Positions 1,212 to 58,778 of a stretch of DNA of 64,000 nucleotides are shown here, piece after piece. The notes beneath the pieces are model-generated. The model was not told the DNA's origin. It ran no database searches and saw only the letters and a list, made by a program, of their open reading frames with translations. Within the stretch, counting starts at the first letter, position 1. Each line of letters begins with the position of its first letter. The translations under genes were made by a program, and so were the position numbers. The DNA lies in the NCBI RefSeq assembly GCF_003096415.1, contig NZ_QEKH01000015.1, positions 62,001-126,000 of the forward strand, in the 5' to 3' direction. This stretch comes from Victivallis vadensis (GTDB lineage: Bacteria > Verrucomicrobiota > Lentisphaeria > Victivallales > Victivallaceae).

Positions 1212-1635
1212 TGGAGTAGGCCTTTTGCTGAAAACAGCAAATGCCATAAAACGGACGGCAAGGTGCCGCGGCCGGGTGCGCACGCCAATGCCCCTACGGG
1301 GGGCGTGCGACGGCTGGTACAGGCGAGCCGTGGTTGGTCGACAAAACCATCTACGTGGCGCACAAGTAAAGCTACATTGCCATTTACGTGGCGCACAACA
1401 AGCGCGGTCAGCGCCGCGAACGAATGTGAGGGAATTATTTTGCGGCCGCAAAATAACGAGGAACGATAGTGACGAAGCCGAACGTAGTGAACGAAGCCCC
1501 TCCGGCATAGTGAGCGCAGCGAACGGTGAGGAGTTGGCGGGCGTAGCCCGACAAGTAAGCAGACATGACATTTGAGTTGTTGCCGGTAACGGCCTGAAAA
1601 ATAACCGCAACCCATTTATAACGGAGGTTAACTCA
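1212..1635 (+). other. Long structured leader before a pseudopilin gene
   Basis: About 420 bases with no credible gene. It contains a copy of the GC-rich module (GGCAAGGTGCCG near 1258). It has two copies of TACGTGGCGCACAA at 1352-1365 and 1385-1398, and a perfect 22-bp palindrome at 1435-1456 centred on GCGGCCGC. The stretch after the palindrome is rich in short AGCGAACG-like repeats. The last 15 bases hold the GGAGG ribosome site for 1636. It may be a repeat element captured between promoter and gene, or a regulatory leader. Confidence 0.55.
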
Positions 1636-2430
1636 ATGAGCAATAAAGAGTTGCATATCAAACAACAGAGCAAGACAACCAGATTCTTCACTTTGATTGA
1701 GCTGCTGGTCGTAATTGCGATCATCGCCATTCTGGCAAGCATGCTCCTGCCGGCTCTGAATCAGGCGCGGGAAAAAGCCAAGGCGACAACCTGCCTGAAT
1801 AATATGAAGCAGATCGGACTGGCGGACGCTCAATACGGACTTGATTACGCAGGCTGGCTTTACGGCCCCAATCTGAAAGTTCCCCAGCCGACCGGAGTGA
1901 GCGGCGCGTTGACCATGGACCGTTGGACCATTTCCATGGCAAATCTCGGCTACCTGCCGATGTACCATACCGGTCGGAAAGGGAAAAGATGGCTGCCGGT
2001 CTGTCCGAGCATTTATCCCTTCGGTACGTTCGAACATGAAAATATGGGATATGCCAAGCGCGGGCTGCAAACGGGATATAATCAGAACAAGGATTGTTTC
2101 TGGACATTTTCCGGCAAATTTCGCTACATCGGCATGAATGGCGGCGTTCCGGATTCCACAATGAAGGAACGGGATGACACCGCCGAAGAAACGGTGCGCA
2201 ATACTCCGCCGTCGGAATTCGTGACCACGTTCGACAGCTGCCAGAACGACAACGGCAACTACCGCCAACTGGTTTACGCGGCGTTCGACTGTTTCGGACT
2301 GCTCCATAACGGGCGCGGTTCGATCCTGTTCCACGACGGCCACGCCAAAGCCGACCGCCGCAAATACCACGTACTGAATTACGGACGGCTGCTTTCCGCT
2401 CCCCAACTCACCATCCAGATGCCGGATTGA
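1636..2430 (+). CDS. Prepilin-like (type II pseudopilin) secreted protein
   Basis: 264 residues. A short basic leader is followed by [20 protein letters not shown] and [12 protein letters not shown], the classic N-terminal cleavage/methylation helix of type IV pilins and type II pseudopilins. The rest is a globular domain ending in a histidine/DG segment (ILFHDGHA), seen in the large pseudopilin families of Planctomycetes and Lentisphaerae. The residue before the mature Phe is Phe, not the Gly usual at prepilin peptidase sites. GGAGG nine bases upstream supports the start. The GntR regulator follows within 10 bases, then a secreted glycosidase, so it probably serves uptake or display of that polysaccharide. 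Its exact role is not known. Confidence 0.9.
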
Positions 2431-6178: not shown

Positions 6179-6577
6179 GGGAGGGCCTCCGGCGGCCGGG
6201 GGCGCTTCGCCCCCCGGTCCCTCCGACCGGCAAGATGCCGGCGCCGGGTACGGTTTTGAGATCTTTGCTGCGCAAAAATCTCAAAACCGGAGTTATTAAT
6301 ATAGGGGTATGATAGGTCTATAAGCGATATCTGCCACCGGGTGCTACCCGGTCGAGTTGCAAGGGTGAAGCGCCTTGCCCGTCGGAGACAGTCACGGCAG
6401 CGGCACCTTGCCGCCGCGTAGCGCACAAGGTCTGGAGGCCGCAAGACCCGCCTGTCTTCAAAATGGCAGGCTTTCCCCGACGACTCGTCTCTGGTGGGGG
6501 GGGGTAAAGCACCTTGCCGCTGCTACAGCGCCTGCCGTGAAAGCGACACGGCTTCCCCTTTCGAAAAGTCGGCAGTG
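6179..6577. repeat. Intergenic GC-rich composite repeat
   Basis: No gene. It carries a GGGGCG/CGCCCC hairpin near 6199-6215 and the module GACCGGCAAGATGCCGGCG at 6225-6243. A second relative reads CGGCAGCGGCACCTTGCCG at 6396-6414, with the words GTCGGAGACAGTCACGG just before it. These modules recur near 11960, 22193, 27847, 40615, 46551-46960 and 57460 in either orientation. It lies between converging genes, a usual place for REP-like elements. Confidence 0.7.
6251..6289. terminator. Long hairpin between converging genes
   Basis: CGGTTTTGAGAT at 6251-6262 pairs perfectly with ATCTCAAAACCG at 6278-6289, and TTTGC/GCAAA extends the stem inside. It can stop transcription from both sides, though neither side has a clean T-run. 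Confidence 0.5.
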
Positions 6578-21396: not shown

Positions 21397-22545
21397 TTAC
21401 CAGATATGATCGAACCAGAAATAGTTGTGCTTTTCGGCGGAATAACTCCCGTCCTTGCGGGCCATCAGTTCCGCGTGGGATACTTTGGCCGCGTGCAGGT
21501 CCGCAAATGCGATATTGACCGCCTGACTGTGCCGCCGCGACAACACCTTCTGCTGCCAGATTTCCACCCGGGAGCCGTCCGTGGAGCCGTCGTAGCAGTT
21601 GTAGGCGATATCGCCAGCCAGCAGCCGGAGCGACGGCTTGCGGATCGACCGGAATTCATGCCATCGCTGCGGATTGGAGTTTTCCTTGCCCGCCTGTTTC
21701 GCGGTGCTGGTCAAATAGGTGTTGAACGCATAGCTGTTGTTCATGCCCTTCGGGTCATGATCAGGTTTGACGTTCTGGCCGTCGCGCCGGCCTCCCGGGC
21801 AGAGCGCCACGGGCATCACATCATTCTCAAACATATTGGCTTCCGTCACGGAAGCCACCGGGCTGCCGCCGAGGTAAGGCACCAGCGTGGACTGCTGGAA
21901 ATTGGGCGCGGCCGGCCCGAACAGGAAGCGCGCGGTCCAGCCGGCGTCGTCTTTCCACATGATGCTGCCGTTGTTGTCGTCGGAATACAGCGCGGAAGCC
22001 GTCGCGATCTGCTTCAGGTTGCCGAGGCACTTGGCGGCATGCCCCGCCGCGCGCGCTTTGTTCAGTGCCGGGAGCAGCATCGACGCGAGAATGGCGATGA
22101 TCGCGATCACTACGAGCAGCTCAATCAGCGTAAAACTATTGCGATATCGGGATTTCGCCTTCGGCGAGCAGGGCGCTTCGCCCCTGCACCCAGACCGGCA
22201 AGGTGCCGGTGCCGTGTACGGGGCGGTGGACAGGCGGGGCAACGGTCGTTCGGCAGGGAAGAAAGAGCCGCAATAACGTGAAGTTGTCTTCCCGCTTTTC
22301 TGCGGAAAGACAACTTCACGTTTTTGCTCCGACTTGCCGCTTGCAGAGCATTGGCAGAGGCGTAAGAGCTTGCCGGACATCAGGGAGATGTTGAGATTGC
22401 TTGGTACGGGGAGAGACGCGGCGCAAGTCGCCGCTTTCTCTCCCCCGAACCCCTCTCTTTCGCGCAGAGCGGTATACGGGAACCGAGTGTATATTTTACA
22501 AGTAATATTCACGAGCAGTTCAATCAGGGTGAAATTTCGTTTCAT
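21397..22545 (-). CDS. Pseudopilin carrying an in-frame repeat cassette
   Basis: 382 residues if read from the ATG at 22545. It begins [12 protein letters not shown], runs through 125 codons of repeat-derived sequence without a stop, then repeats the motif as [20 protein letters not shown] with the normal [16 protein letters not shown] helix and a typical pseudopilin domain ending with [10 protein letters not shown]. The downstream motif has no start codon or ribosome site of its own in the preceding bases, so reading through the cassette is the only obvious way to make the protein. Whether the product is cleaved at the first, second or neither motif is unknown. It lies between a GntR regulator and a beta-helix protein in one reverse operon. 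Confidence 0.75.
22135..22509 (-). repeat. In-frame repeat cassette, copy A
   Basis: 375 bases (125 codons) lying exactly between two FTLIELLV-coding segments (22510-22533 and 22111-22134). The segments differ at four bases, so this is not a fresh target duplication. It includes a perfect inverted repeat with 16-bp arms at 22275-22290 and 22307-22322. The GC module is at 22193-22214. By eye about nine bases in ten match copy B at 27.58-27.87 kb with no gaps. The first 79 bases match copy C at 58.18-58.26 kb, again without gaps. Confidence 0.85.
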
Positions 22546-27410: not shown

Positions 27411-28589
27411 ATGAGCGCAATACAGCAGAACACTCACCCCCATACCCACACACTTGTTCCCGCTCTGCGTAAAAGAGAGGCGGCAAGGTGCCGCAGCCGG
27501 GTAACGGGATGTGCGTCGTCACTACGTTCCTCCTACTTATCCCGCTGGGGAGTTTCGCTCCCCCGGCCCCTCGTTGTCTCTCCTGTTCCCGCTCTGCGTA
27601 AAAGAGAGGGGTTCGGGGGAGAGAAAGCGGCGGCTTGCGCCGCGTCTCTCCCCGTACCAACCAATCCGAACATCTCTTTTGTTTCCGGCAAGCTCTCACG
27701 CCTCCGCCAATGCTCTGCAAGCGGCAAGTCGGAGCAAAAACGTGAAGTTGTTTTTCCGCAGAAAAGCGGGAAGACAACTTCACGTTATTGCGGATCTTCC
27801 TTCCCCGCCGGCCGAACGCGCCACCGCCTGTCGACCGTCCCGTACCCGGCACCGGCACCTTGCCGAACGCAGGGGGTGCGGGGGGCGGCGGACACGCCCC
27901 CCGCATACCGCCGCTTAAGGCCGTTTACCCTCATTGAGCTGCTCGTGGTGATCGCAATCATAGCGATATTAGCGGCGATGCTGCTGCCGGCACTGCAGCA
28001 GGCGCGGGAACGGGCGAGGGAGGTGCAGTGCCTGAACAACCAGAAACAGTGCGGAGTGGTGTTCGCATTTTATGCCGATGCGAACAACGGCTGGATGCCT
28101 GCCGCGAAGTTCGCGCTGCCGGACCGGCCGGGGATCAGTTTGCCGTGGCGGGTGGCGCTGGGGCAACTCGGATTCATGCCGGAGTGGGAGGAGGGGAAAC
28201 GGAGCTTCGGGAACTGCCCGAAGAACCTCGATTACCTGATCAGCAACGAGAACAGCTACGGCATGCAGATGGGAAAGGCGGAGCTGCCGGGATGCGGCCT
28301 GACGTGGAAAACCGGCGGGGGCGAACTTTTTTACGCCCGGCGGGAGACCCGGTTCGGGAGCGGCGACCTGCTTTGCGCGGATTCGACCCGGGCCACGGTC
28401 AACACCACGTATGAAATCTACTACATCGGCTACGGCCGGGGTGTGGCGGTGGATTCCGGGACCGGCAAGAACCTTGCGATCCGGCACGGAGATAAGGCGA
28501 ACGTGCTGTACGGCGACCTGCACGCGGCGGGGAAGCGGTACTCCGAAGCGGCGCAGGAACAGGTTTACAACTATACATTCCGCCGGTAA
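27411..28589 (+). CDS. Pseudopilin with a repeat-derived N-terminal extension
   Basis: 392 residues from the ATG at 27411, which has a strong AAGGAG site eight bases before it. The first 171 codons are repeat-derived and open throughout. The pseudopilin proper then starts with [20 protein letters not shown] and [16 protein letters not shown] and ends with [14 protein letters not shown]. No start codon with a ribosome site lies just before FTLIELLV, so translation must pass through the repeat. Unlike the gene at 22545, no first FTLIELLV precedes the cassette. It is followed after 12 bases by the secreted agarase-like enzyme. The extension would make ordinary Sec/prepilin targeting impossible unless it is removed, so the gene may be impaired. 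Confidence 0.7.
27455..27923 (+). repeat. In-frame repeat cassette, copy B, with nested direct repeat
   Basis: The core (27584-27866) matches copy A at 22.1-22.5 kb, with the same hairpin at 27739-27786; one arm is changed by C-to-T, which keeps G-U pairing in RNA. A 26-bp word (TGTTCCCGCTCTGCGTAAAA plus GAGAGG) occurs at 27455-27480 and again at 27584-27609, so extra repeat material is nested in the head. The GC module is at 27847-27865. The tail (GGCGGACACGCCCCCCGCAT) is shared with copy C at 58.1 kb. Confidence 0.85.
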
Positions 28590-46506: not shown

Positions 46507-47029
46507 CTCGGGAGATGCCTCCGGCGGCTCGGGGCGCCCCCGAGACTCCCGACCGGCAAAGTGCCGGTGCCGGAATCAGTATCTATACTGTTTATTTGCT
46601 CTATCGGCGGAACTCGCCTCCGGGTGCTACCCGATCGTGATCCAACGGCGAAACCGTTGGCCATCGGAGACGCCTGTGCGCTACAGCGCCCAGCTACCGG
46701 AGCCTGATTGTAAATCAGGCCGCGTAGCGCACAAGGTCTGCCGCCTGCCGCGAAAGCGGCATGGCCTCCCCCGCAACTCGCCACCAACGGCCGGTGGCGT
46801 TTCGCCCCCCCTGACCGGCAAGATGCCGGCATCGGGGTTATTCTCTATCAGTTTATTCGCTCTATCGGCGGAACTCCGCACCGGCACGTTGCCGGTCGTG
46901 ATCCAACGGCAAAACCGTTGGCCGTCGGAGACAATCACGGCAACGGCATGACCTCCCTCGCCTCCGGGGCTGCCCCCTCCGACACCTCCGGGAGTTTTCC
47001 AAAAAAAATGGACAAAAGTTCCGGCACTC
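46507..47029. repeat. Tandem composite intergenic repeat
   Basis: No gene. Two units in the same order. Unit 1 has GACCGGCAAAGTGCCGGTGC at 46551, then CTCTATCGGCGGAACTC, then the hairpin CCAACGGcgaaaCCGTTGG at 46642-46660 and ATCGGAGAC. Unit 2 has GACCGGCAAGATGCCGGC at 46813, CTCTATCGGCGGAACTC again, CCGCACCGGCACGTTGCCGG at 46876, the hairpin at 46903-46921 and GTCGGAGACAATCACGGC. Similar material is at 6.2-6.5 kb and 57.45-57.53 kb. Confidence 0.75.
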
Positions 47030-57412: not shown

Positions 57413-57568
57413 CGATATGCCCAAAAACAGTCCCGGCCGCCGGAAATGAGATGCGCCGTGACAGTCTCGGACAGTCAACGGTTTCGCCGTTGGATCACGT
57501 CCGGCAGGTGAAGCGCATCCCGCCACCGGAGGCATGTGTGGTTTTCCGGTAAATTTTGCGTTTTCCTC
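57413..57568. repeat. Fragment of the composite intergenic repeat
   Basis: Reverse-orientation relative of the 46.6-46.9 kb units: GCCGTGACAGTCTCGGACAG near 57455-57474, then the hairpin CAACGGtttcgCCGTTG at 57476-57492. No gene seen. Confidence 0.6.
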
Positions 57569-57597
57569 TTGACAAACGGAATCCGATTCGTTATAAC
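57569..57597 (+). promoter_or_regulatory. Intact promoter facing a decayed locus
   Basis: TTGACA, 17 bp, TATAAC. The spacer contains GAATCCGATTC (57579-57589), an operator-like inverted repeat. It lies directly before the regulator fragment at 57602. Confidence 0.7.
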
Positions 57598-57601
57598 TGA
57601 T

Positions 57602-57985
57602 GTGGCCTGCCGCCATACCAGCTACACGCTGATTCCGGCCTACGAACGGGCCGCGCGAATCGTGGACGCGTCGCCGCGCCCGCCGGCAGTGTTCTGCACG
57701 GCGCAGGAGCTGGCGATCGGGCTGAACCGCTACTGCCATGAACAGGGAATCACGGGCGGGCGCGAGCTGTCGGTCTGCTCTTTCGGCCAACCGGAGATGG
57801 CGCGAATGCAGGTGCCGTCGATCACGGTGACCGATCGGCCGCCGCCGGTGGAAGTCGCGGAGGAGATGATCCGCGATGTGATGGATTCCGGCGTCGGCGA
57901 ACCGGTCAAACTGATGTACCGCGCCGGCGTCGGCAATCTGATCGTCGGTGAATCCACCGGTCCCCTTACTCCATTGCAACACTGA
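57602..57985 (+). pseudogene. C-terminal remnant of a LacI/GntR-type sugar-responsive regulator
   Basis: About 128 codons open in one frame. It resembles the last third of a LacI-type ligand domain: SYTLIPAYERAARIVDAS, PPAVFCTAQELAIGLNRY, ELSVCSFGQPEMARMQVPSI, and a tail with VAEEMIRDVMD. The DNA-binding part and first lobe are missing; the promoter sits almost on top of the first codon. A deletion between promoter and gene end would give this. It precedes remnants of a pseudopilin and a beta-helix gene, the same order as intact loci nearby. Confidence 0.65.
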
Positions 57986-58002: not shown

Positions 58003-58271
58003 ATGAGAACCAAATCGAACACAGCGCCTTTTCCCCGCCGCCCCCCGCGCCAATGTTTTCCGCACCCGCTCTCGGCCTCCTGCCGGATGCGGGAGGCACG
58101 GCACGAGGCGGACACGCCCCCCGCATCCCATGATTGCAGGCTGACTGCCATAGGATTTACATTGATTGAGCTGTTCGTGAACATTATTTATGAAATATGC
58201 AATCAGTTTTCGTATGACGTTCTGCGCAAAAGAGAGGAGTTGAGGGGAGAGAAAGCGGTGCGGAAAACCGC
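58003..58271 (+). pseudogene. Pseudopilin 5' remnant with truncated repeat cassettes (copy C)
   Basis: An ATG with AAGAAGGA upstream opens MRTKSNTA, then runs into cassette-tail sequence (GGCGGACACGCCCCCCGCAT, shared with copy B). GFTLIELFV follows at 58153-58179, then about 80 bases of cassette head (shared without gaps with copy A: LRKREELRGEKA-like codons). It then breaks into a beta-helix fragment. The pilin domain itself is absent. So one cassette tail and another cassette head flank a single FTLIEL motif. Confidence 0.75.
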
Positions 58272-58778
58272 AACTGGTCCAAGCCCCGCATGGGCGCTTT
58301 GAAAGAACATGAAATGCGCGGGCCGGTTTCCAAGCGGTTCGCCTTCGCCCCCGGAGCGGGCTTCCTCGCTTTCAACAACACCATTTTCCACGAGCACGGC
58401 AACTTCTTCAACAAGCCCGGCCCGCTGGAATGCGAACTGGTGAACTTCCGCTTCTTCAACAATATCATCGTGACCGCCGCATTCCACAAAAACGCCAAAT
58501 ACCGGGGAAGCCTGATGGAGTTCTACAACAATCTGGTCGTCTCGCCCGGCAGCGCCGAACAGTCGAAGCTGCTCGCCGGAGAAGGCGGCAGCGTGCTCGA
58601 CAGTGTGGAGGCGCTGCAATTGAAGGCCCCCGCCGATTACGATTTCTCCCCGCTCGAAAACAGTCCGGCCCGGAATGCGGGAACTACCGCGATCCACCCG
58701 GCTTCCCATGCCGACATCGGCGCAATACCGGCCGGAACCTCCTGGAAAATGCCGCCGGTCGGACCGCTGACCGACTGA
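58272..58778 (+). pseudogene. C-terminal remnant of a secreted beta-helix protein
   Basis: 169 codons in one frame. Hydrophobic, Asn-rich strands such as GFLAFNNTIFHEHGNFFN, VNFRFFNNIIVTAAF and SLMEFYNNLVVSPG are rungs of a parallel beta-helix. It closes with FSPLENSPARNAGTTAIHPASHADIGAI, the usual end of these proteins (compare YTLAAGSPGIGAGEPVPG in the gene at 18688). The signal peptide and front half are missing. An ATG at 58290 has no ribosome site. Confidence 0.75.

Follow-up and report, generated by a model that had tools for sequence, protein, structure and literature searches.

A decayed pseudopilin leader in Victivallis vadensis in which two translated palindromic repeats probably meet at FTLIELLV coding DNA

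Protein-coding palindromic repeats are described from Rickettsia and Wolbachia, and the Rickettsia palindromic elements (RPEs) are palindromic repeats of ~150 bp that lie in frame in many unrelated genes at varied positions, are translated, occur in many copies and encode no enzyme, according to the summaries in PMC10969869 and PMC2996958 (Ogata et al. 2000, 2002). The cassette reported here, from pseudopilin genes of Victivallis vadensis, shares with the RPEs, as portrayed there, its in-frame and stop-free reading, many copies, palindromic structure and lack of an encoded enzyme; it differs in its length of ~400 bp, in its confinement to one gene family and one site (each of the 41 core copies is in the leader of a pseudopilin, none in other, unrelated genes), in the duplication of a motif and in its head-to-tail chains. 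By these described traits, protein-coding palindromic repeats are the closest known kind. Three further systems invite comparison. Antigenic variation at pilE/pilS of Neisseria proceeds by recombination among many pilin copies via conserved stretches and exchanges the mature variable region; the cassette would share the conserved-stretch recombination among pilin copies and differs in that DNA is gained in the leader alone, ahead of the mature protein. In integrons, too, a short sequence recurs at the head-to-tail joints between cassettes, whereas here the joint is protein-coding. REP/REPIN sequences with a RAYT transposase are hairpin repeats dispersed in one genome, mostly between genes; the cassette is also a dispersed hairpin repeat but sits within genes, and a profile search of the genome for the Y1 transposase (PF01797) gave no match, where 5 of 14 control genomes matched, so that mobilisation of the REP/RAYT kind was rejected. 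A search of the open-licence literature returned no prior description of the cassette.

The locus that led to the cassette lies in a stretch of 64,000 nucleotides of the V. vadensis genome (NZ_QEKH01000015.1, positions 62,001 to 126,000), referred to below as the window, and comprises the following features.

57536..57985, plus strand: C-terminal fragment of a LacI-family regulator, 5' of the stub (PF13377, E 4.3e-10, profile positions 64-167 only, N-terminal half absent)
58003..58302, plus strand: pseudopilin stub ORF of 99 aa in the order tail-motif-head, by direct reading (MRTKSNTAPF...GFTLIELFVNIIYEICNQ...AWAL, then stop)
58060..58155, plus strand: tail of a first cassette (SASCRMREARHEADTPPASHDCRLTAIG), 71-77% identical to the tails of other copies (query 58-177)
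58156..58179, plus strand: FTLIELFV junction motif, 24 nt, where the tail and head homology blocks overlap
58180..58258, plus strand: head of a second cassette (NIIYEICNQFSYDVLRKRE...GEKA), broken off inside its first hairpin, 84% identical to G000:C4:187948-188051 (E 3e-25)
58290..58778, plus strand: unrelated ORF fragment in another frame, 3' of the stub, from the ORF list and without a Pfam match

Searched as DNA against its own genome (5.2 Mb, 87 contigs), the stub ORF gave 43 matches in two classes, one covering motif and head (query 153-256, up to 84% identity, E 3e-25) and the other tail and motif (query 58-177, up to 77%, E 4.5e-19). The classes overlap exactly at query 153-177, which is the motif; in the window the tail block (58060-58179) and the head block (58155-58258) share the 24 FTLIELFV bases. 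This bears out the tail-motif-head order proposed in an earlier note on this DNA. Tail, motif and head occur in one stretch at only one other place in the genome (G000:C4:12796-12967, E 6e-22). Within the window the motif pattern has five matches, against none in 100 shuffles, and the stub's head and tail resemble 22431-22533 (80% over 103 nt) and 27840-27909 (73% over 70 nt), respectively; the note's comparison of the two ends with a copy A and a copy B thus has counterparts in the window, though its letters do not map simply onto these two copies. After FTLIELFV the stub reads NIIYEICNQ, the hydrophobic helix is absent, and the protein matched nothing in Pfam or NCBIfam; with the LacI-family piece and the ORF fragment on its flanks, this agrees with the note's view of a dead pseudopilin. 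The locus is probably a decayed pseudopilin leader in which two translated, palindrome-rich repeats meet at FTLIELLV coding DNA.

The repeat, ~400 bases overall, has a core of ~278 nt that is present in at least 41 copies in the host genome, all directly before the FTLIELLV of pseudopilin genes and all in one orientation at one site. Exact motif sites number 215 in the genome, about half of them examined individually, and a reversed control pattern has none. Two intact cassette-bearing genes and a cassette-free start lie within the window.

21397..22545, minus strand: intact pseudopilin gene of 382 aa with a complete cassette (motif-cassette-motif), PF07963 at aa 133-158
22510..22533, minus strand: upstream FTLIELLV of this copy with no helix after it, by motif search and sequence reading
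22135..22509, minus strand: head, core and tail of this copy, by repeat matches (RNA fold z -6.7)
22111..22134, minus strand: downstream FTLIELLV of this copy and start of the pilin helix, by motif search and Pfam
27411..28589, plus strand: second intact cassette-bearing pseudopilin gene, 392 aa, without an upstream motif, TIGR02532 at aa 172-192
27461..27590, plus strand: nested second module (...LPRPLV) between two PALRKRE repeats, repeat family D4 in the window
27591..27923, plus strand: core and tail of the 27411 copy, by repeat matches
1637..1769, plus strand: cassette-free pseudopilin start, for comparison, by sequence reading

The prepilin N-terminal methylation motif is recognised in the 22545 copy by PF07963 (31.9 bits, cut-off 21.2) and in the 27411 copy by TIGR02532 (21.0 bits, cut-off 16.3), PF07963 falling just under its cut-off in the latter at 20.3 bits. 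The second palindromic module, ~120 nt long, is nested in several cassettes (window 27461-27590; L107, L091, L054) between direct PALRKRE repeats (CCCGCTCTGCGTAAAAGAGAG), and L107 holds several partial or complete copies of it in a row. A repeat like this module (GGCAAGGTGCCGCGGCCGGGTGCGCACGCC...) also lies at window 1262-1330, ahead of the cassette-free pseudopilin start at 1637. A different dispersed repeat of palindrome-like form, whose hairpins read CCGGGTGCTACCCGG or CCGGCA..TGCCGG, occurs at 6307-6388, 46590-46671, 46851-46932 and 57455-57506.

The right joint is uniform, the tail ending at FTLIELLV in 41/41 copies. In full-length copies the downstream motif begins 335, 338, 347 or 353 nt from the core start, distances that differ by multiples of three, and shortened copies are also in phase except for the frameshifted L099. 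On the left, 22 copies carry an upstream motif at exactly -61 nt from the core, or at -178/-190 where the second module is nested. In our reading of the translated leaders about six more have a decayed upstream motif (FTMIEFLV, ITLIKFLM etc.) and 13 have none, several of these starting with the second module (AARCRC...). The motif is thus a junction, as the earlier note had held, and its suggested genome-wide check, that joints always fall within the 24 motif bases, is borne out by every tail but by only some half to two thirds of the heads; the 'always' fails for the remainder, where heads begin away from the motif, which the note itself had named as evidence against it.

The joint can be seen to the base at one syntenic locus, the only clean pair of empty and filled sites, which is empty in a relative (G005, L146) and filled in the host genome (L052). 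Identity of the flanks is 90.3% across the 1409 nt that precede the insertion and 91.4% across the 1552 nt that follow it, and the old leader is also conserved up to the motif. In L052, 373 nt are unmatched and the flanks overlap by 23 nt, the motif, in the empty L146, giving a clean insertion of 396 nt with the motif duplicated. In four further pairs (L093/L185, L035/L186, L098/L188 and L102/L189) homology restarts at the first bases of the motif, the leaders there diverging anyway; most other candidate ortholog pairs are too diverged for base-level joints. L053/L139 was rejected as an empty/filled pair, L139 being a mosaic with an imported LacI C-terminal piece.

Codon usage within the motif distinguishes its two copies. 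Codon homozygosity in the upstream motif is near or below background from F1 to L6 and becomes cassette-like from L7/V8 (22 copies; L7, p 0.05), and upstream motifs show no preference for the exact GAGCTGCTCGT form (11/22 vs 28/76, p 0.33). In the downstream motif it exceeds background at F1-L3 and E5-L7 and is back at that level at V8. The downstream L7 is CTC in 37/41 copies vs 40/76 elsewhere (p 3e-5), and the downstream T2 and L3 codons follow the tail type, with ACG in 19/22 long-tail copies vs 17/76 elsewhere (p 8e-8). The excess of codon identity over cassette-free genes covers the motif (0.593 vs 0.416, 0 of 200 permutations) and is not significant past it (p 0.125). On the simplest reading of these codons, the upstream motif would be target-like and the downstream motif would travel with the cassette, with L7/V8 as the place of exchange on either side; of the two halves of this reading, the upstream one is the weaker. 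The unit exchanged would then consist of head, core, tail and motif, and its point of entry would be the 3' end of the motif in the target. Simple transposition with target-site duplication was rejected: motifs at the same locus differ by 3.7 nt on average vs 4.2 when shuffled (p 0.008), only a slight similarity, and the downstream motif follows the cassette type.

We favour, with a probability of roughly 0.6, a translated palindromic repeat of the leader that spreads within the genome by recombination at FTLIELLV coding DNA. Recombination would take place between the FTLIELLV-coding stretches of roughly 200 pseudopilin genes by unequal crossover or gene conversion, possibly via excised circles, and the exchange would fall close to the motif's 3' end. 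The gene would then have the order motif-cassette-motif after each event, further cassettes could enter at either motif to form chains, and the upstream motif would then lose its function and decay. At 58003 a second cassette would have entered a gene already holding one, and a later deletion would have removed the remainder of the gene. Several observations weigh against this reading: about a third of the copies have no left-end motif, there is just the one clean empty/filled pair, upstream motifs lack a preference for the exact form, and the motif identity extends over 23-24 nt only, which is little for RecA exchange of the ordinary kind unless the helix region contributes. L139 (G006) is a mosaic pseudopilin locus with 96% syntenic flanks. 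Here FTLI is followed by a cassette-head remnant (FTLI/TCRIYKIH), then by part of the LacI C-terminus and by another pilin start; the LacI 3' end and the foreign pilin start were imported, and the right joint lies in the helix. Homologous exchange over motif plus helix is favoured because this import joins in the helix beside a cassette-head remnant.

A dedicated site-specific recombinase or transposase, with the motif as its attachment or target site as in integron cassettes or site-specific MITEs, is an unlikely agent of these events. The concentration of exchange near L7/V8 on both sides, the single orientation and site of all copies and the hairpin-rich cassette are what such an enzyme would leave, yet orientation and site are also forced by the frame and by a working motif, some joints lie elsewhere, the element encodes no enzyme and the Y1 (REP-type) transposase is absent from the genome. 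Slightly less probable still is an integron-like version in which FTLIELLV coding DNA would be a true attachment site and a putative recombinase would move short non-autonomous coding cassettes between pilin genes, with a protein motif as the joint and a cargo clipped off after translation. The earlier note's proposal that the motif DNA is the recombination or integration point stands for the junction itself; it is not supported as far as a dedicated site goes, since homologous exchange over short shared sequence fits the same data and foreign tracts can run past the motif (L139).

The stringing together of cassettes, also foreseen in that note, is recurrent, because five chain loci are seen along with apparent decayed older heads upstream of the present head in L052 and L044. 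Among all loci retrieved, the tail-motif-head order is present at the 58003 locus, L004/L105 (G000), L118 and L129 (G003) and L119 (G002), and chains thus recur in sister species also. L105 has the complete order tail-motif-head-core-tail-motif-pilin. In L129 two cassettes stand in tandem, the first with an internal deletion and the last 174 nt differing at 7 positions, which looks like duplication by exchange between its two motifs.

The cassette keeps its reading frame. Its length is a multiple of three and it is free of stops in 40/41 copies, the exception being the frameshifted L099, where random placement of the observed substitutions on the consensus gives at least one stop in about 20-21 copies (minimum 12 in 300 runs). 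The first, second and third codon positions have substitution rates of 7.3, 10.0 and 9.7%, the synonymous fraction is 0.335 vs 0.296 ± 0.013 expected, and in some copies a local frame shift is restored further on (SSHRRPTASLHCTA vs SSFPAGRPRLRLSTV). The cassette alignment contains three stems with 96.8% of cells paired and a covariation of 0.166 vs 0.060 in shuffles, and in the 21-bp stem the paired changes come in blocks; the RNA fold z-score of the 22545 copy is -6.7, and an Rfam search of the window found no RNA family match. As the frame is kept, the peptide hardly so, and the hairpins covary, the best reading of the cassette is a palindromic repeat that is required to remain translatable, its peptide almost unconstrained. 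Broken cassette genes are also present, L104 running from a pilin start into unrelated enzyme-like sequence, L103 having a frameshift after the motif and L099 one within the core.

In type IV pilins the leader is removed by a prepilin peptidase, for which the genome has one gene. A need for frame with a loose peptide fits a position before the cleavage site, as this enzyme should remove the leader; we infer that the host tolerates the extended leader because it is on the cytoplasmic side and is cut off by the prepilin peptidase. An old functional leader domain, serving in targeting, chaperone binding or mRNA regulation and copied through whole-gene duplication, is very unlikely: the conserved frame and the strong conserved hairpins with paired changes suit it, but past the helix the cassette genes have for the most part unrelated bodies, the empty site is clean, amino acid constraint is weak with local compensated frameshifts inside the cassette, and most relatives in the same genus lack it.

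Core DNA of the cassette is present in two congeners, G002 and G003, and at a single locus in one further genome. The latter locus (G035 contig 58; L110, L120), in a genome assigned to another genus, is probably bin contamination or a very recent transfer, because its protein is identical to that of the host's L042. Five other congeners gave no peptide-level cassette match, G007 has one weak match with a stop, and a search against 72,556 plasmids found no match, rejecting a plasmid-borne element. In G002 many cassette matches lie at contig ends (contigs 36, 40, 48, 49, 53, 73, 79, 80 and 93); short-read assemblies therefore break at the repeat, and the true number of copies in G002 is likely higher than counted. 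Similarity among cassettes of one genome is 87% in G000 and 90-93% in G002 and G003, against 70% when G000 is compared with the others, and cassettes at orthologous loci are no closer than those at other loci; this points to spread or homogenisation within each lineage; the timing of the spread is uncertain because most same-genus relatives lack the cassette.

Weak relatives of hairpin and tail occur in other genera of the family (L194, L196, L197, L198), several with in-frame stops and, in the loci read, outside pilin leaders, which suggests that the leader cassette was recruited from an intergenic palindrome family. That members of such a family instead fell into leaders many times independently, the motif joint being an artefact of selection for insertions that spare the motif, is the least probable explanation: the noncoding relatives with stops and the expected loss of insertions elsewhere in the gene allow it, but selection does not explain the fixed spacing of the upstream motif, and the codons of the downstream motif go along with the type of cassette.

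If the favoured reading is true, the cassette would be selfish DNA living in a part of a protein that is expected to be cut off after translation, and a very specific site would be reached simply via one nearly invariant motif common to a host gene family. This could go some way to explain why the leaders of these pseudopilins are so very long and repetitive, and would offer a testable view of the way in which large gene families become colonised by repeats.
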